A program made the translations under genes and the position numbers. A stretch of DNA of 64,000 bases. Origin: Paludibacteraceae bacterium (GTDB lineage: Bacteria; Bacteroidota; Bacteroidia; Bacteroidales; Paludibacteraceae). The stretch spans positions 41,218-105,217 of the forward strand of contig CAJOKE010000018.1 in NCBI GenBank assembly GCA_905235225.1, given 5' to 3'. Within the stretch, counting starts at the first letter, position 1, and the number at the start of each line of letters is the position of its first letter. This document shows, one piece after another, positions 9,877 to 58,493 of this stretch. The notes below the pieces were generated by a model. The model saw nothing but the letters and a program-made list of their open reading frames with translations, had not been told where the DNA came from and did not search any database.

Positions 9877-10704
9877 TTATTTATTGAATTTAATATTCTT
9901 AAGGTTTTTGAGACTCATATTTTTGAATGTCCATGCGTTGGCACTTGATACGGCAAACGCATCGGACAGCACCCTGATAAGTTCATCCCTGTTGACAGTA
10001 CGGATGGCTGCATCATGCGCAATGGCAATTTTGCCGGTTTCTTCGGATACGACAATGGCTATGACATCGGCATTTTTCTCCGACAATCCAAGTGCAGCGC
10101 GGTGTCTTAGTCCATAATTTTGAGGGATATTAGTCTGCTTGGAGACAGGCAGAATACATGCTGCCGAATGGAGTCTGTTCCCGATAATAAACAAAGCCCC
10201 GTCATGCAAAGGTGTATTTTTGAAGAAGATATTCTCAATCACCAGCGAAGAAATAGTCGCATCAATGAATTCGCCGGTATCGGTGTATTCCTTCATTTCG
10301 TTATCGCCGGCAATGACAATTAGTGCGCCTGTTTTGGTCTTTGCCATATGCTCACATGCCATCACAATCTGATCCACATAATGCTCGGATTGCTGAGTGC
10401 GGTGTGTCAGCGGATGCCAGTTACTGAACCTTGCGCCGATTCGATAAAAGAAGCCGCGTAATTCTTCCTGAAATATAACAATAAGCGCAATCGCTCCGAC
10501 ACTGATAATACGGTCAAACAACGCTCCCGTCAATTCCAGTTGGAAGACATAACTAAGCAAATACCATGTCACCACGAATGCCAGTATTCCCCAGAACAGA
10601 TTTGCCGCCCCCGAACGGCGCAATAATCGGAACATCTCATAGAAAATCAGAGCAACCAACAGTATGTCAATGGCATCTTTGATACCGAAAGAAAAGCCTA
10701 TCAT
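9877..10704 (-). CDS. cdaA: diadenylate cyclase
   Basis: DisA_N motifs LHDGALFI and [13 protein letters not shown]-terminal membrane helices. Confidence 0.93.
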
Positions 10705-11516
10705 ATGATTCGTCGGATTATATCAATCGTTGTCTTAGTTGCGGCTACATCGTGTACCCGCAGGATGTTTGCCCCGTTTTTGAGTGCCATGGCATTAGCA
10801 GCAATGGTCGCCGTCAATGCCATATCAGAATCAGGGGTTGTCTGAAGCGGCTTATAAAACATTGACTTGCGCGAGATACCGACCAATATGGGCAGATCAG
10901 CATAACAGAGGTCATTCAGGTACTTCAGCAGTTCGTAGTTCTGCTCCTCACTTTTGTTAAAACCGAAGCCGGGGTCGGCAATCACATCTCTGACACCCAA
11001 GCGGTGAAGCTCATCCGCTTTGCGCACAAGGAACTCTAAAACCTGAACACTGATCGGCTTATCAGATGCCAACGGAGAAGCATATGTCAGTACATAAGGA
11101 ACCGCTAATTCTGCCACAGTAGAAAACATATTAGGGTCGCTGCCCCCGGAAACATCATTGATGATATCCGCATGATAGCGTTCTACCGCTTTACGGGCTA
11201 TATCGGCTCTGAATGTATCAACCGAAAGGACTGCATCAGGATAGGTACGACGTATAGCACGCAATGCAATATCTATCCTACGCCACTCTTCTTCCGCAGT
11301 AACAGGTTGCGCGCCGGGGCGCGTGGAACATCCGCCGACATCAATAATATCCGCCCCCTGTGCAATCGCTTGAGCGGTCATGGATAATATTTCCGCCTCA
11401 CTAATATTCGTACATGAGAAAGCAAAACTGTCAGTAGTTGCATTAACTACCGCCATCACTTTGGGAGTCCCCAAGTCAAAAAGTCTGCCATTTATATTAA
11501 GAGAGTAACTGCGCAT
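10701..11516 (-). CDS. folP: dihydropteroate synthase
   Basis: MAVVNATTDSF, DIIDVGGCSTRPGA, ISRKS; start trimmed to MRSYSLNINGRLF. Confidence 0.95.
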   Translation of the reverse strand: MRSYSLNINGRLFDLGTPKVMAVVNATTDSFAFSCTNISEAEILSMTAQAIAQGADIIDVGGCSTRPGAQPVTAEEEWRRIDIALRAIRRTYPDAVLSVDTFRADIARKAVERYHADIINDVSGGSDPNMFSTVAELAVPYVLTYASPLASDKPISVQVLEFLVRKADELHRLGVRDVIADPGFGFNKSEEQNYELLKYLNDLCYADLPILVGISRKSMFYKPLQTTPDSDMALTATIAANAMALKNGANILRVHDVAATKTTIDIIRRII

Positions 11517-49354: not shown

Positions 49355-50773
49355 ATGGACAAAAAAACGCACAAGCCACTTATGAACACCATGAAAGAAG
49401 ACCAACACATAGAATTCAAACAGTCCTGGCGGGATGAATATCTGCAATATATTTGCGGCTTTGCGAACGCGCAAGGCGGCACATTATATATCGGTATTGA
49501 CAACAAGGGAGAGGTTTGCGGTATTAAGAATGCACATACATTATTGGAAAATCTCCCGAATCAGATTAATCAGACGATGGGATTGTTAGCTCAGGTCGAC
49601 TTGCACGTTGATGAGGAAAAAGAATATATCTCTATTCATGTAGAACCGAGCGACCAAGCCATCTCATATCGTGGCAAGTTTTATTACCGCTCCGGCTCCA
49701 CTTTGCAGGAAATGAACGGAGTAGCCTTGACTGATTTCCTTTTCAGGAAAAACAACACCACATGGGACCAATCTATCGTGGAAGAAGCCACATTGGATGA
49801 ATTGGATGCAGAATCCGTTGATTATTTCCTGCGCAAAGCTGTTGATGCACAACGCTTGGATGCAAGCGTGAGAGAATTGTCTCATATACAACTGCTCCGC
49901 AAACTCAAACTGGTCAATCACGAGGATCAACTGACGATGGCGGCACTACTGTTGTTTGGTAAAGATATTGAGCAATGGAACCTGATGGCATCTTTCCGAA
50001 TCGGACGTTTCCAACAGTCACAGGCGAATCTGCTTTTTCAAGATAATATCGTTTGTCCGCTTATCCACATGCCGGAAAGAGTATTGTGGACATTGCGCTC
50101 CCGTTACCTCGTTGCACCTATCCATTATGAGGGCTTGCAACGTATAGAGCCGCTGGAGATACCAGAAGATGCTTTGCGAGAAATGGTTTGTAATGCTATC
50201 GTGCACAAGAACTATTTGGGTCCGCATATCCAGATGCGGGTTTGGGATGATAAAATTGAATTGTGGAACTTTGGCGAGCTTCCGTATAACTATACAATAG
50301 AGAAACTGCTGCAGACGCATGAGTCTTATCCGCGTAATCCATTGATTGCGCAAATCTTCTATTTGGCTGGTCTTATTGAGCAGTGGGGACGAGGCTATGA
50401 AAAAATCCACGATGCTTTTGTCCGGGAACATCTGATGCAACCTACGTTTGAACAAGCCCGTGGTGGCATCTTGGTCACCATCCCTCGTGAAAAGTTTATT
50501 GCTATACAAACCGGCAAATCAATCGGAGCGGAACTATCTACGACACCAGATGACCAGACTACACAGAAAAGTGTACAGAAAAGTGTACAGAAAAGTGTAC
50601 AGAAAATAGTTGATTTCATTAGCGAGAATCCGAATATAACGACGCAAGAAATGGCTAATTTATTAGGCATAAATAGAAGTGTTGTAGCTCGTCATATTAA
50701 AACCTTAAAAGAAAAAGGAATTATCCGACGTGTCGGCCCTGATAAAGGTGGTCATTGGGAAATTTTGTCGTAA
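49355..50773 (+). CDS. AlbA_2 (schlafen-like) putative DNA-binding / transcriptional regulator with C-terminal winged helix
   Basis: EDQHIEFKQSWRDEYLQYICGFANAQGGTLYIGIDNKGEV; C-terminal NITTQEMANLLGINRSVVARHIKTLKEKGIIRRVG. Confidence 0.9.
   Translation: MDKKTHKPLMNTMKEDQHIEFKQSWRDEYLQYICGFANAQGGTLYIGIDNKGEVCGIKNAHTLLENLPNQINQTMGLLAQVDLHVDEEKEYISIHVEPSDQAISYRGKFYYRSGSTLQEMNGVALTDFLFRKNNTTWDQSIVEEATLDELDAESVDYFLRKAVDAQRLDASVRELSHIQLLRKLKLVNHEDQLTMAALLLFGKDIEQWNLMASFRIGRFQQSQANLLFQDNIVCPLIHMPERVLWTLRSRYLVAPIHYEGLQRIEPLEIPEDALREMVCNAIVHKNYLGPHIQMRVWDDKIELWNFGELPYNYTIEKLLQTHESYPRNPLIAQIFYLAGLIEQWGRGYEKIHDAFVREHLMQPTFEQARGGILVTIPREKFIAIQTGKSIGAELSTTPDDQTTQKSVQKSVQKSVQKIVDFISENPNITTQEMANLLGINRSVVARHIKTLKEKGIIRRVGPDKGGHWEILS
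50567..50602. repeat. 12-bp in-frame tandem repeat x3 (aaaagtgtacag)
   Basis: Encodes KSVQ-KSVQ-KSVQ in the linker before the winged helix. Confidence 0.95.
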
Positions 50774-50988: not shown

Positions 50989-53970
50989 ATGTTAGAAAAG
51001 CAAATAGAGGATAATCTCATAGAGGCTCTACAACGTGCAAACTATGTTTTTCGTGATGATATTCATGACCGCAAGTCATTGGAAGAGAATTTTAAGACAA
51101 AATTTGAAAGACTCAACCATTGTCATTTGTTGGACGTGGAATATCGTCGTTTGTTGGATCAGATTATTACGGATGATGTTTTTGAAGCTTCTCGGATGCT
51201 GCGTGAGCGAGAAACTTTCATAAGAGAGGATGGAATACCTTTGCAATATACACTGGTTAATACAAAAGATTGGTGTAAAAATGAATACGAAGTGGTGAGG
51301 CAACTTCGTATAAACACTTTAAATAGTTTTCAACGCTATGATGTCATTCTCCTTATCAATGGTCTTCCTGTTGTACAGATTGAACTCAAAACTTTAGATG
51401 TAAGTCCTCGACGGGCTATTCAACAAATTGTTGATTATAAGAAAGATCCTGGAAACGGCTTCTCGAACTCTCTACTTTGTTTTATTCAATTGTTTGTCGT
51501 TAGCAATCAGAGTAATACTTATTATTTTGCGAATAACAACAATCAGCATTTCAATTTTAATGCAGACGAGCAATTCCTTCCAGTCTATCATTGGGCGGAC
51601 AAAGAAAATCATAAGATATGTGGTTTGGCGGCTTTTACAGATTGTTTTCTGGCTAAATGCAAATTAGGTGAAATGATAAGTCGTTATATGGTACTTGTTG
51701 CCAGTGAACGTAAGTTGCTTATCATGCGTCCCTACCAAATTTATGCTGTTAAAGAGATAATCAATTGTATAGATGAGAATCGTGGCAACGGATATATATG
51801 GCATACCACAGGAAGCGGTAAAACACTTACATCGTTCAAGGCCTCTACATTACTGAAAGAATGTCCTGACATAGAGAAATGTCTTTTTGTTGTAGACCGT
51901 AAGGATTTAGATAGACAAACCCGTGAAGAATTTAATCGTTTTCAAGAAGGATGTGTAGAGGAAAATACGAATACGGAAAATTTAGTAGAACGATTGGAAT
52001 CGGACGATTATGCAGACAAAGTCATTGTCACAACAATTCAGAAATTAGGACTTGCACTGGATCCTCAATTTAAGAAGCAGTATCAAAAGCGTTTGATGCC
52101 TTTGCGGGATAAACGTATAGCAATTATTTTCGATGAATGCCACCGCTCCCAGTTTGGGGATAATCACAAAGCTATTACTGAGTTTTTTCCTAACGCACAA
52201 TTGTTTGGCTTTACAGGCACTCCCATTTTTGATGAAAACGCAACCTATGTGCAGATAAGTGGTGAAGAAAAGACTTTGAAAACGACAGAAGATATTTTCC
52301 AAAAAGAATTGCATGCATATACTATTACACATGCTATAGAGGATAAAAATGTATTACGTTTTCATGTGGATTATTTCAAACCCGAAAATACTAACGCACA
52401 GACAGATGCTTCTTTGCGCAGACAAGCTATTGTGGAAGCAATTCTTGCTAAACATGATATTGCTACGAATGGACGAAAATTTAATGCGCTGTTCGCTACT
52501 GGTTCTATTAATGAAGCTATTGCATACTATGAGTTATTTAAACAGATACAACAGCGATGTGCAGAAGATCGTGAGGATTTTGAGCCATTAAATATTGCAT
52601 GCATCTTCTCCCCTCCTGCTGGAAAGAATAAGGATATTCATCAAATTCAAGAGGATTTGTTGCAGGAAAAAGAAGATAATAAAGAGGAACCCGATGTAAA
52701 GAAGAAACTCTTACAGGGTATTATCAAGGATTACAATCATCAATTTCAAACTAATCATACATTGTCGGAATTTGATGCCTATTATCAGGATATACAGAAG
52801 CGCATTAAAGATCAGCAGTATCCCAATCGTGATTATTCGCATGAGAACAAAATAGACATTACAATTGTGGTGGATATGTTGCTTACAGGCTTTGATTCCA
52901 AATATTTGAATACGCTGTATGTGGATAAAAAATTGAGATACCACCAACTTATACAAGCTTTTTCGCGCACAAATCGTATTCTAAATGATAGTAAACCTTA
53001 TGGAAATATCCTTGATTTTCGTGGACAGCAAGAAGCGGTAGATTTAGCAATCGCCCTTTTTTCCGGAGAGAAAAAGGATGAAGCACGTAGGATATGGCTT
53101 GTCGAGCCGGCTAATAAGATTATAGAGAAATACAAAGAAGCAGTAATGGCATTGTCCGATTTTATGCGGGCACAGTATTTAGAATGTACAGCGGAAGATG
53201 TCTATAACTTGCAAGGAGATGAGGCTCGTATGGCGTTTATTAGTTGTTTTAAAGAGGTTCAGCGGTACAAAACACAATTGGACCAATATACAGATATTAA
53301 CCAAGAAGAGCAACAAGTTATTGAGTCTCTCTTACCGACGGAAGAATTACAAAGTTTCCGTGGCGCATATTTGGAAACAGCACAGCAACTAAGGGCCAAA
53401 AGCAGCAAAGAGGAGAGCAATCCGGAGATAAAAGAGCAGATTGATAATATCGATTTTGAGTTTGTCTTATTTGCTTCCGCGTTGATAGATTATGACTATA
53501 TAATGGAACTCATATCTCGGTATGCTGGTGTGGGAGCGAAAAAACTAAAAATGACAAAAGAGCAACTGATTGCTTTAATTCAATCTAGCGCAAACTTGAT
53601 GGACGAGCGTGATGACATTATTGCATATATTGATTCCTTAGATTCGGATGACGCTGTTAATGGCAAAACGGAACAGGAAATCAAAGAGGGATATGAAGTG
53701 TTTAAAACGACTAAATATGCTAACGAAGTAATAGATATTGCACATCGCCATCAATTAAGTCCTAAGGTGCTGGAGAACTTTATTAATGAAATTGTTTCAC
53801 GTAAGATTTTTGATGGTGATAAACTTACTGACCTTCTTGCTCCTCTCAATTTGGGATGGAAGTCGCGCTCTAAAGAAGAAAATTTACTAATGGAAGAAAT
53901 TATCCCTATCCTCCGTCGTTTGTCAAACGGACAGGATATATCTGGTTTGTCCGCGTATGAAAACAAATAA
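50989..53970 (+). CDS. hsdR: type I restriction endonuclease subunit R
   Basis: NGYIWHTTGSGKTLTSFKA; IIFDECHRSQFG; LFGFTGTPIFDENA; N-terminal nuclease domain (INGLPVVQIELKT). Confidence 0.96.
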   Translation: MLEKQIEDNLIEALQRANYVFRDDIHDRKSLEENFKTKFERLNHCHLLDVEYRRLLDQIITDDVFEASRMLRERETFIREDGIPLQYTLVNTKDWCKNEYEVVRQLRINTLNSFQRYDVILLINGLPVVQIELKTLDVSPRRAIQQIVDYKKDPGNGFSNSLLCFIQLFVVSNQSNTYYFANNNNQHFNFNADEQFLPVYHWADKENHKICGLAAFTDCFLAKCKLGEMISRYMVLVASERKLLIMRPYQIYAVKEIINCIDENRGNGYIWHTTGSGKTLTSFKASTLLKECPDIEKCLFVVDRKDLDRQTREEFNRFQEGCVEENTNTENLVERLESDDYADKVIVTTIQKLGLALDPQFKKQYQKRLMPLRDKRIAIIFDECHRSQFGDNHKAITEFFPNAQLFGFTGTPIFDENATYVQISGEEKTLKTTEDIFQKELHAYTITHAIEDKNVLRFHVDYFKPENTNAQTDASLRRQAIVEAILAKHDIATNGRKFNALFATGSINEAIAYYELFKQIQQRCAEDREDFEPLNIACIFSPPAGKNKDIHQIQEDLLQEKEDNKEEPDVKKKLLQGIIKDYNHQFQTNHTLSEFDAYYQDIQKRIKDQQYPNRDYSHENKIDITIVVDMLLTGFDSKYLNTLYVDKKLRYHQLIQAFSRTNRILNDSKPYGNILDFRGQQEAVDLAIALFSGEKKDEARRIWLVEPANKIIEKYKEAVMALSDFMRAQYLECTAEDVYNLQGDEARMAFISCFKEVQRYKTQLDQYTDINQEEQQVIESLLPTEELQSFRGAYLETAQQLRAKSSKEESNPEIKEQIDNIDFEFVLFASALIDYDYIMELISRYAGVGAKKLKMTKEQLIALIQSSANLMDERDDIIAYIDSLDSDDAVNGKTEQEIKEGYEVFKTTKYANEVIDIAHRHQLSPKVLENFINEIVSRKIFDGDKLTDLLAPLNLGWKSRSKEENLLMEEIIPILRRLSNGQDISGLSAYENK

Positions 53971-55184
53971 TACATTCTATAGATTCTCTGACTTTGTGAG
54001 GTGTCCTAAATGGAAAGGACACCCATTAAGTCATTTCCTCAAAGAACGGAAAGAAAAAAGTGATGGTATTGCCACTGTACATTCAGTGTCCTTGCAATAT
54101 GGCTTAGTGAATCAGGTGGATTATTTAGGACGAAATTATGCAGCGGAAGATACATCAAATTATAAATTGGTTTATCCTAATGATGTAGTATATACAAAAA
54201 GTCCAACAGTTCCCATATGGCATAATTAAGCAAAACAGAAACCCTTATAAAGTGATAGTATCTCCTCTTTATGGAGTTTTCAAACCTATCAATAAATACA
54301 TAGGATATATTATACAATCTTATTTTGAAGTTCCTAATAGGTTGAATAAATATTTAAGTCCGATTATTCAAAAAGGAGCAAAGAATACGATAAATATATC
54401 AAATAGCACTTTTATTTCAAGAGAAGTGGTTTTGCCTGAAAATGAGCAAGAGCAAAAAAAGATAGCACAATGCCTGGCATCAATAAATACCCAAATCAGA
54501 CAACAACAGAAACAAATTGATGTCCTCATACAGCACAAAAAAGCTTTATTGCAACAATTATTTCCCCAGAGAGGACAATCAACACCTTTATTGCGTTATT
54601 TCATAGGATCAAAAAAGAAGTGGCATTATGTTGAGATGCGAAAAGTGGCGATATTGAGAACAAAACGTAATGTTAATAATAGTAAAAAAGTAATGACTAA
54701 TTCCGCTAATTATGGAATTATTATGCAGCAAGATTACTTTGAAAGGAATATTGTTGATAATGATCATTTACAAAAATACTATATAGTAGAAAACGGGGAT
54801 TTTGTATATAATTCTCGTATATCGGTTACGGCTCCGGTTGGTCCTATATCAAAGAATTATTTAGCAACAGGAGTTATTTCACCATTGTATATGGTGTTCA
54901 GATTTAATATCGACAAAGATGACTTTTATGTATATTATTTTCAATCTGAACATTGGCAAGTACAACTGAAAAGAATAGCTAACAATGGAGCGCGATTTGA
55001 TAGAATGAGTATTAGTCCTTCTGATTTTTTTAATATTAAAGTTCCTGTCCCTTCTGCCGAAGAGAGGGAATATATATCTAAATTGTTTATATCCATTGAT
55101 AACTTAATAAATAATATGCAGCAAAAAGTAGATTTGCTTATGCTACAGAAGAAGGGACTTTTACAGAAATTATTTCCGAATTAA
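53957..55184 (+). pseudogene. hsdS: type I restriction-modification specificity subunit, split by a frameshift near 54206-54213
   Basis: Two ORFs (53957-54229 and 54252-55184). The expected ..YTKSPT / FPYGIIKQNRNPYKVIVSPLYGVF continuation changes frame. Two TRDs and conserved QQQKQIDVLIQHKKALLQQLFPQ helices. Confidence 0.88.
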
Positions 55185-55195
55185 AACAAAATAGA

Positions 55196-56287
55196 ATGAA
55201 TACAATAGCGCAACAATTATTGGAATTAGATAAACATATCGTGCTCGTATATGCCTTTAATGGAACAGGAAAAACACGATTGTCCGTTGCTTATAAAGAT
55301 GTAACGAAACAAGCAAATGGTAATAAACATGCTGGTGTTTATTACAATGCTTACAGCGAGGATTTGTTTGTTTGGGAGAATGACGAAGAACATCATGGAG
55401 CAAATATAAAACTAGAAATAAAGTCAAGTAGTCTAAATCAATATCTTCAATATATAACGGAGGAAAAATTAGATGAGCATTTAAAGGACTATAAGCCTCG
55501 TTTTGATTATCGTTTCCATAATTATGTTGATGCATCTGATGGTATTGAATACATTCAGTTTTATGTTAAAAAGGATCAACCTGAAAATCAAGAGGAGGAT
55601 GTGCACAAAGATGATACACCAATCAAGCTATCAAGAGGTGAACAGCAATTCTTTATCTGGTGTTTTTTTCTGACGTTATTTGATATCGAAGAATTTACCG
55701 GACAAGACAAGCAATCACATCATTTTTTCATTGACGACCCTGTTTCAAGTTTCGACGATCATAATATTTTTATAACTGTCGCTTCATTGATGAATTTAAT
55801 AGAAAAACACTATGCAAATAGAAAAATAGTGATAACTACTCATCATATTGGATTATTTGCTATTTTATATAATTGGTTGAGTAAATCAGAAAAAAGTGGC
55901 TCGTATAAAAAACAACTTAAAACTTATATCCTCAAACGCTATGGAGATACGGTTACTTTACAAAGTGATGATAAAGAAGTATTATTATATCACCTTGAGT
56001 TGTTGCAAATTATTAAAAATGCAATAAATGAGGATAAGTTATATGCATACCATTTTACTTTACTTCGGCAAGTCCTAGAAAATATTTCTTCATTTTTAGG
56101 GGCAGGAGCTTTTTCTTATGCCTTGGAACAAATAGGTATTGATAAAAATGATGCAAATATTGTAAATGCCTTGTCTCATAAAAATATATTTCGATATGAA
56201 TCGGTTGAATTAGTTCCTGATAACAAGGAACGATTAATTTATATTTTCGAAGCATTGATGAAAAAGTATAAGTTTATTTTACACTAA
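55196..56287 (+). CDS. PrrC-like AAA ATPase / candidate anticodon nuclease within the hsd locus
   Basis: Walker A FNGTGKTRLS; signature LSRGEQQFFIW; Walker B HHFFIDDPVSSFDDHN; H-loop ITTHH; C-terminal LLRQVLEN...ALSHKN (R-x3-E ... H). Confidence 0.7.
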   Translation: MNTIAQQLLELDKHIVLVYAFNGTGKTRLSVAYKDVTKQANGNKHAGVYYNAYSEDLFVWENDEEHHGANIKLEIKSSSLNQYLQYITEEKLDEHLKDYKPRFDYRFHNYVDASDGIEYIQFYVKKDQPENQEEDVHKDDTPIKLSRGEQQFFIWCFFLTLFDIEEFTGQDKQSHHFFIDDPVSSFDDHNIFITVASLMNLIEKHYANRKIVITTHHIGLFAILYNWLSKSEKSGSYKKQLKTYILKRYGDTVTLQSDDKEVLLYHLELLQIIKNAINEDKLYAYHFTLLRQVLENISSFLGAGAFSYALEQIGIDKNDANIVNALSHKNIFRYESVELVPDNKERLIYIFEALMKKYKFILH

Positions 56288-56301: not shown

Positions 56302-57930
56302 ATGAGCGCAACAGACAATAATAAATTAGGAAAACTTTTGTGGGCAATCGCCAATCAATTGCGTGGAGCAATGAATGCTGATGATTTTAGAGATTATATG
56401 CTTTCATTCCTCTTTTTGCGTTATTTGTCAGATAATTATATTGCAGCTGTCAAAAAAGAATTAGGAAGAGAATATCCTGATGAATTGAATCCAAATGTAA
56501 AGCGAAAATTGAAAGGTACTACGCCCTTACAATTGTGGTATGATGAAAATAAGGAAGATATTATAGAGTTTGAACGTGTAATGCGTAGACGTATCCATTA
56601 TGTTATCAAACCGGAATATTTATGGCAGAATATCTTTGTTCTTTCTCTAAAACAGGATGAGGACCTGCTTAATACACTGGAAGATGGTTTTAGATATATT
56701 GAGAACGAATCATTTGAAAGCACATTTCAAGGCTTGTTCTCTGAAATAAACCTTAATTCCGAGAAATTAGGACGTAACTACAAAGAAAGGAATTTGCAGT
56801 TATGTAAGATAATTGTAACAATTAATGACGGCATTGACCAATTCCCTCAAGATAGAGATTCTTTAGGTGATGCTTATGAATATTTGATTGGACAATTTGC
56901 TGCGGGATCTGGGAAGAAGGCTGGTGAATTTTATACACCGCAAAAGGTCTCGACTATTCTTTCGCGTATAGTAACGCTTGATTGTCAATCGCCGGAAACA
57001 GGTAAACGCGACCACATCAATCAAGTGCTTGATATGACATGTGGTTCAGGTTCGTTACTGCTGAACGTTCGCAAAGAGTGTGGCAAACAGGTAGGAAAGA
57101 TATATGGGCAGGAAAAAAACATCACTACATATAACCTTGCACGCATGAATATGATTCTGCATGGAGTGAAAGATACAGAATTTTCTATTCATCATGGTGA
57201 TACGTTGATGAATGATTGGGATATTCTAAAGGAAATGAATCCTGCAAAGAAGATACATTTTGACGCTGTCGTGGCAAATCCTCCGTTTTCTTTGCGCTGG
57301 GATCCTTCGGAAGAATTGCTACAAGATTTCAGGTTCTCACGTTATGGAATAGCTCCACGTATAGCAGCCGATTTCGCGTTTCTATTGCATGGATTCCACT
57401 ATTTGAGTGATGATGGTACGATGGCAATCATTCTTCCTCATGGTGTATTGTTCCGTGGAGGTAAAGAAGAAGCTATTCGTAAAAAACTGATAGTTGAAGG
57501 CTGTATAGATACGATTATCGGATTACCACAGGGCTTGTTCTATTCGACAGGCATTCCTGTTTGCATTATTGTGTTGAAGAAATGCCGCAAAAGCGATGAT
57601 ATATTGTTTATTAATGCGAGTGGCAAAGAACATTATGAACGAGGGCGCAAACAAAATGCACTACGGGATGAAGATGTTAATAAGATAGTGGACACATACC
57701 AGCATCGTATAGAAGAAATACGTTATTCTCGCCGTGTTTCTTTAAAAGAAATTCATGATAATGATTATAATTTGAATATTACTCGTTATGTGGATCTTAC
57801 AACAGATGAAGAGCCGATAGATATTAATGCTGTTCATGAACAGTTAGTAGAAATTGAAAACAGCATCCAGTCCGCTAAAGCTGAGCACAACAAATACCTC
57901 GCCGAATTAGGTTTGCCATTATTGCCATAA
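56302..57930 (+). CDS. hsdM: type I restriction-modification methyltransferase subunit M
   Basis: GEFYTPQKVSTILSRIV; LDMTCGSGSLLLNVRKE; FDAVVANPPFSLRW (NPPF). Confidence 0.97.
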   Translation: MSATDNNKLGKLLWAIANQLRGAMNADDFRDYMLSFLFLRYLSDNYIAAVKKELGREYPDELNPNVKRKLKGTTPLQLWYDENKEDIIEFERVMRRRIHYVIKPEYLWQNIFVLSLKQDEDLLNTLEDGFRYIENESFESTFQGLFSEINLNSEKLGRNYKERNLQLCKIIVTINDGIDQFPQDRDSLGDAYEYLIGQFAAGSGKKAGEFYTPQKVSTILSRIVTLDCQSPETGKRDHINQVLDMTCGSGSLLLNVRKECGKQVGKIYGQEKNITTYNLARMNMILHGVKDTEFSIHHGDTLMNDWDILKEMNPAKKIHFDAVVANPPFSLRWDPSEELLQDFRFSRYGIAPRIAADFAFLLHGFHYLSDDGTMAIILPHGVLFRGGKEEAIRKKLIVEGCIDTIIGLPQGLFYSTGIPVCIIVLKKCRKSDDILFINASGKEHYERGRKQNALRDEDVNKIVDTYQHRIEEIRYSRRVSLKEIHDNDYNLNITRYVDLTTDEEPIDINAVHEQLVEIENSIQSAKAEHNKYLAELGLPLLP

Positions 57931-58190: not shown

Positions 58191-58493
58191 ATGGCTAAGA
58201 AAAAATCATCAAGAGAAATAACCATTCGCAGTTCGGCTGCTGAATATCTGACTTTTGTTAGTGCCATCGGCGACCAACCGCAAAGCGTAGAATTGCGCTA
58301 TGAAGACGAAAACATCTGGCTAACGCAACGCCTGATGGCGGAATTATATGGTGTGGATGTGCGCACAATAAATGACCATATTCAAAAGGTATATAACGAC
58401 CATGAATTGGAAGAGGGGGCAACTATCCGTAATTTTCGGATAGTTCAAACTGAAGGCACCCGACAAGTGATTAAACCGTTTCCTCAAAATTAA
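58191..58493 (+). pseudogene. RhuM-like protein, C-terminally truncated
   Basis: VELRYEDENIWLTQRLMAELYGVDVRTINDHIQKVYNDHELEEGATIRNFRIVQTEGTRQV, then an unrelated stop. Confidence 0.75.

Follow-up and report, generated by a model that had tools for sequence, protein, structure and literature searches.

A divergent Bacteroidales homologue of the anticodon nuclease PrrC in a type IC-like restriction-modification operon

Three described systems provide the closest comparisons for the gene considered here. EcoPrrC is encoded in the EcoprrI locus (prrABCD), where prrC directly follows hsdS in the order hsdM-hsdS-prrC-hsdR, and its tRNA-recognition peptide has been placed at positions 284–294, a stretch that only some PrrC homologues conserve and that thus does not define the family (PMC3014915). 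PrrC170 of Klebsiella quasipneumoniae combines an ABC head with an anticodon nuclease (ACNase) domain, is encoded in the order HsdR-HsdS-PrrC-HsdM, causes growth arrest, targets tRNA-Lys and defends against T1 and T7 (PMC11555353). RloC also fuses a Rad50-like ABC ATPase to an R-x3-E...H ACNase domain, carries a coiled-coil zinc hook, has the spacing R-x3-E-x36-52-H and shows linkage to type I loci only rarely (PMC2610378).

The window, a 64,000-nucleotide stretch of a Paludibacteraceae contig, contains an intact ORF of 363 aa with an ATG start at 55196–56287 on the + strand, as do all the operon genes described below. The first-pass annotation had placed this candidate between hsdS and hsdM in the order hsdR-hsdS-ATPase-hsdM, and searches with Pfam, PADLOC and NCBIfam bear that out. 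Upstream lies hsdR (50989–53970, 993 aa), whose EcoR124-type C-terminus (EcoR124_C domain) gives the locus its type IC setting, and downstream lies hsdM (56302–57930, 542 aa). The position claimed for hsdS is right but the gene is not intact, since it is spread over two ORFs in different frames: a 5' part of 90 aa (53957–54229) that holds the start of the first specificity domain and ends in a frameshift, and a 3' ORF of 310 aa (54252–55184) with the remainder of that domain, the conserved regions and the second specificity domain. The GC content is 0.31–0.39 across 50–58 kb compared with ~0.45 in the surroundings, a sequence signal that suggests horizontal gain. Within the genus, two of 178 genomes have a homologue, and among the genomes searched from the family 10 gave PADLOC PrrC matches at ~1e-80 or better. 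When the downstream esterase gene was used to look for an empty insertion site, its relatives turned out not to share the tested flanking genes; an Rfam scan matched nothing, and promoter and terminator scans performed no better than chance level. The gene upstream of the operon (49355–50773) encodes Schlafen AlbA_2, HATPase_c_4 and winged-helix domains and has within its coding sequence, at 50563–50606, 3.7 copies of the 12-nt tandem repeat ACAGAAAAGTGT. Downstream of hsdM, a 100-aa ORF (58191–58493) looks by eye like the start of a RhuM protein, gave no family match above the cut-off and is probably a truncated RhuM-like remnant.

Several lines of evidence support identification of the 55196–56287 product as a PrrC homologue and predicted anticodon nuclease. 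The motifs initially reported, GTGKTRLS, LSRGEQQ, FFIDDPVSSFDDHN, ITTHH, LLRQVLEN and ALSHKN, are all found in the ORF. Walker A (FNGTGKTRLS, residues 21–30, 55256–55285) is strongly conserved in the alignment, as is a 15-residue stretch, YYNAYSEDLFVWEND (residues 49–63, 55340–55384), that is probably the published N-terminal 15-residue 'PrrC box'. The catalytic triad claimed from the sequence is also present, R291-x3-E295 at 56066–56080 and H328, 33 residues past the Glu, at 56177–56179. Every full-length homologue in a 62-sequence alignment has the Arg, Glu and His at these columns, so the arrangement is not due to chance. A profile search gave a near full-length match to the PADLOC PrrC model PDLC02360 (322 bits, E 1.2e-96, model positions 22–347 of 372), with the runner-up model at 41 bits (2e-11). 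Together with a triad that can be aligned with that of EcoPrrC, this makes the assignment firmer than the 'PrrC-like' first proposed. Two other members of the clade to which the window protein belongs scored 2.4e-101 and 1.5e-107 with the same model.

The letters KYGDSNKSFSY, which we take to be the tRNA-recognition peptide of EcoPrrC, stand at residues 284–294 of our EcoPrrC-type control, a 396-aa E. coli plasmid protein (L044) that scores 490 bits (7.7e-148) with PDLC02360. In this control R320, E324, H356 and D222 lie at their published positions, and its length, triad, D222 and gene order (hsdM-hsdS-prrC-hsdR, or M-S-C-R, that of EcoprrI) match the description of EcoPrrC (PMC3014915). With L044 as reference, the window protein is 33% identical over 334 aligned residues, shares all ABC motifs and has R291, E295 and H328 in place of R320, E324 and H356. 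It differs in its length (363 as opposed to 396 aa), in the order of its operon (hsdR-hsdS-prrC-hsdM, R-S-C-M) and in retaining neither KYGDSNKSFSY nor Arg349. The letters KRYGD in the window protein had been considered as a recognition peptide and were rejected; the alignment places the peptide at residues 257–265, and the region aligned to EcoPrrC residues 285–295 has diverged to DDKEVLLYH (residues 258–266, 55967–55993).

Structure prediction agrees with the ABC-type ATPase head recognised at the outset. An AlphaFold2 model built from 33 sequences (mean pLDDT 83.7) contains a Rad50-like ABC head at residues ~1–265 followed by a C-terminal ACNase/HEPN-like domain at ~265–360, and Rad50 heads are the best structural matches of residues 1–265 (Z 12.8, rmsd 3.5, 214 residues aligned). 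Because ABC domains dominated the fold search with the whole model, the C-terminal 106 residues were folded separately (pLDDT 86.4). The top five structural entries for this isolated domain are all HEPN proteins, with 100–104 of 106 residues aligned at Z 7.0–7.8, although each match is weak and helical bundles can reach such scores by chance; Foldseek matches to HEPN proteins had E above 1. On the predicted model, the C-terminal bundle is likely a HEPN fold. A Pfam scan of the isolated domain matched no HEPN model, an absence that is no argument against the fold, and with the window protein a single-sequence PDB search gave no match and profile PDB searches gave weak ABC or unrelated matches and nothing else. 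As to the proposed HEPN-type architecture, a helical bundle with HEPN proteins as its best matches is predicted, but these matches are individually weak and the R-x4-6-H motif, taken as the HEPN active-site motif by Anantharaman et al. 2013 (PMC3710099), is absent: the Arg of R-x6-H is replaced by Asn321. The window protein does have the R-x3-E...H triad, on which the mutational data for EcoPrrC and RloC bear (PMC3014915, PMC2610378).

To place the protein in its family we collected more than 60 homologues from plasmids, E. coli genomes, species genomes and viral contigs, and built a careful tree of 57 rows and a quick one of 62. Most PrrC family members are 357–440 aa long, and their gene orders, as far as visible per locus, are either R-S-C-M or M-S-C-R. 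The length and order of the window gene had been reported correctly, but as unusual features they do not stand, both being normal for the family. At nearly all loci with readable flanks prrC comes directly after hsdS, the exceptions being contig ends and two loci without a recognised hsdS (L072 and L097). Gene order divides the PrrC lineages cleanly: a single branch, that is one change, splits the two orders in 100% of 200 bootstrap trees. Three lineages are seen: the EcoPrrC type with the order M-S-C-R, a lineage of R-S-C-M order in which E. coli and Klebsiella proteins occur, and the window clade. Their relative placement is unsure, as the tree program warned that long branches meet. PrrC170 presumably belongs to the R-S-C-M lineage with the E. 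coli and Klebsiella proteins; those of its gene order, which serve here as stand-ins for PrrC170 itself, are ~33% identical to the window protein. The window protein shares the gene order and domain composition of PrrC170 and falls in a separate, Bacteroidales-centred clade of nine members on a long branch (support 100/100), all from Bacteroidota save one viral contig of unknown host. Records of a phage collection held no relative of the window protein. The window gene is a further member of the PrrC family, ordinary apart from its divergent Bacteroidales clade and its frameshifted hsdS neighbour.

The tRNA-Lys recognition peptide (EcoPrrC 284–294) is replaced throughout the window clade, with the columns that match EcoPrrC 287–293 changed from D-S/T-(NK)-S/P-F-S/F to forms like KE-VLL or ND-VFL, and at the equivalent of EcoPrrC K325 most members have N, while two have S or T. 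The position of Arg349, which precedes the catalytic His by seven residues, holds Arg in 26 of 27 proteins of one of the other two lineages and in 29 of 29 of the second; in the window clade it is N, Q, T, D or R, with the Arg of R-x6-H retained in two members (L032 and L049). Tentatively, the clade could be regarded as a distinct third, Bacteroidales PrrC lineage with its own tRNA-recognition surface, possibly another tRNA target and an R-x3-E...H centre without the HEPN Arg, and it offers a natural test of the residues that set tRNA choice.

By homology with EcoPrrC and PrrC170, the window gene is expected to work as a guard, and in our analysis it very probably encodes a PrrC-family anticodon nuclease that guards the type I R-M enzyme of its own operon. 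PrrC would be co-produced with the Hsd subunits and presumably kept inactive in the R-M complex until a phage product inhibits or perturbs that complex. The Rad50-like ABC head, by binding and hydrolysing nucleotide, would then free the C-terminal HEPN-like domain, allowing R291, E295 and H328 to cut the anticodon loop of a tRNA, most likely tRNA-Lys, and so stop translation. Family membership, the intact ORF, the conserved triad, the predicted domain architecture and the operon position are established directly. PrrC170, which has the same gene order and is experimentally toxic, tRNA-Lys-specific and anti-phage (PMC11555353), favours a guard function, and PrrC guard systems with experimental grounding would be extended into a Bacteroidales lineage. 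Against it count the lost recognition peptide and the Arg-to-Asn change in R-x6-H, the low scores of the HEPN matches (Foldseek E above 1, Z below 8), the frameshifted hsdS, which could mean a decaying locus, and a source genome in 82 contigs with an estimated completeness of 83%. The present wiring of the guard to a working restriction enzyme may depend on that hsdS.

Other readings of the gene differ in how much of this evidence they can accommodate. Pfam AAA_13 matches the window protein and RloC has the same ABC motifs and triad (PMC2610378), which would suit RloC or another AAA_13 ABC ATPase, yet we consider this highly improbable: the protein has a single Cys and no CxxC zinc hook, its 363 aa are too few for a long coiled-coil insert and none appears in the model, the Glu-to-His spacing of 33 lies outside the x36-52 range of RloC, the PrrC model outscores the next by 322 to 41 bits, and a type I locus is a rare setting for RloC (PMC2610378). 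Within the PrrC family, a nuclease acting on another tRNA or RNA in place of tRNA-Lys is conceivable but doubtful. The replaced peptide, the variable R-x6-H Arg that is nearly invariant elsewhere and the long, fully supported branch would fit such a change, and substrates may vary with the recognition-peptide region according to a review (PMC3014915). However, PrrC170 still targets tRNA-Lys despite only 35% identity to EcoPrrC (PMC11555353) and proteins in its gene-order group likewise depart from EcoPrrC in the peptide, so peptide divergence is no proof of a new substrate.

The state of hsdS raises a different alternative, that the operon is decaying, with the working R-M enzyme lost through the frameshift and prrC, though still open, left behind as a remnant that is inactive or poorly expressed. 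One homologous HsdS (L035) can be aligned across both window frames, residues 14–89 and then 92–415 with the junction near 54209, and the window hsdS reads as frameshifted near 54209–54229 in the first specificity domain, the shift being either genuine or an assembly error. At the four clade loci read (L008, L011, L032 and L033) hsdS is in one frame. The genome (82 contigs, estimated 83% complete) yielded no second hsdS, and no inverted repeats were found near hsdS, so there is no sign of a phase-variable switch. The missing second copy and the probably truncated RhuM-like ORF would fit decay, as would the finding that PrrC without Hsd partners acts as an anticodon nuclease in E. coli (PMC3014915), since loss of HsdS might then select for loss of PrrC. 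With hsdS frameshifted, the set of subunits by which PrrC is normally kept silent may be disrupted. We nonetheless judge decay unlikely, with prrC, hsdR and hsdM all open, every PrrC motif retained and an assembly error able to account for the frameshift. In addition, the 310-aa ORF resembles the N-terminally truncated type IC HsdS of EcoDXXI, which can work as a homodimer (PMC3874165), and by analogy it might support a complex. EcoPrrC is active as a nuclease when the other prr genes are missing, so an intact prrC beside an hsdS that is really dead would call for an explanation, and the pairing found here constitutes a natural test of whether PrrC silencing needs an intact specificity subunit.

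Some homologous loci have features of their own. Many IMG/VR contigs classed as viral (within L049–L084) carry prrC R-M operons, in both gene orders. Just downstream of the EcoPrrC-type operon of L044 lies an annotated 3'-phosphatase (10468–10974), and the plasmid also has a terminase gene. Two enteric plasmids (L034, 1880–5664; L048, 901–4688) have extra genes between hsdR and hsdS in the prrC operon, among them one annotated as a TrlF-family AAA-like ATPase and one annotated as a transcriptional regulator or RNA-binding domain protein.
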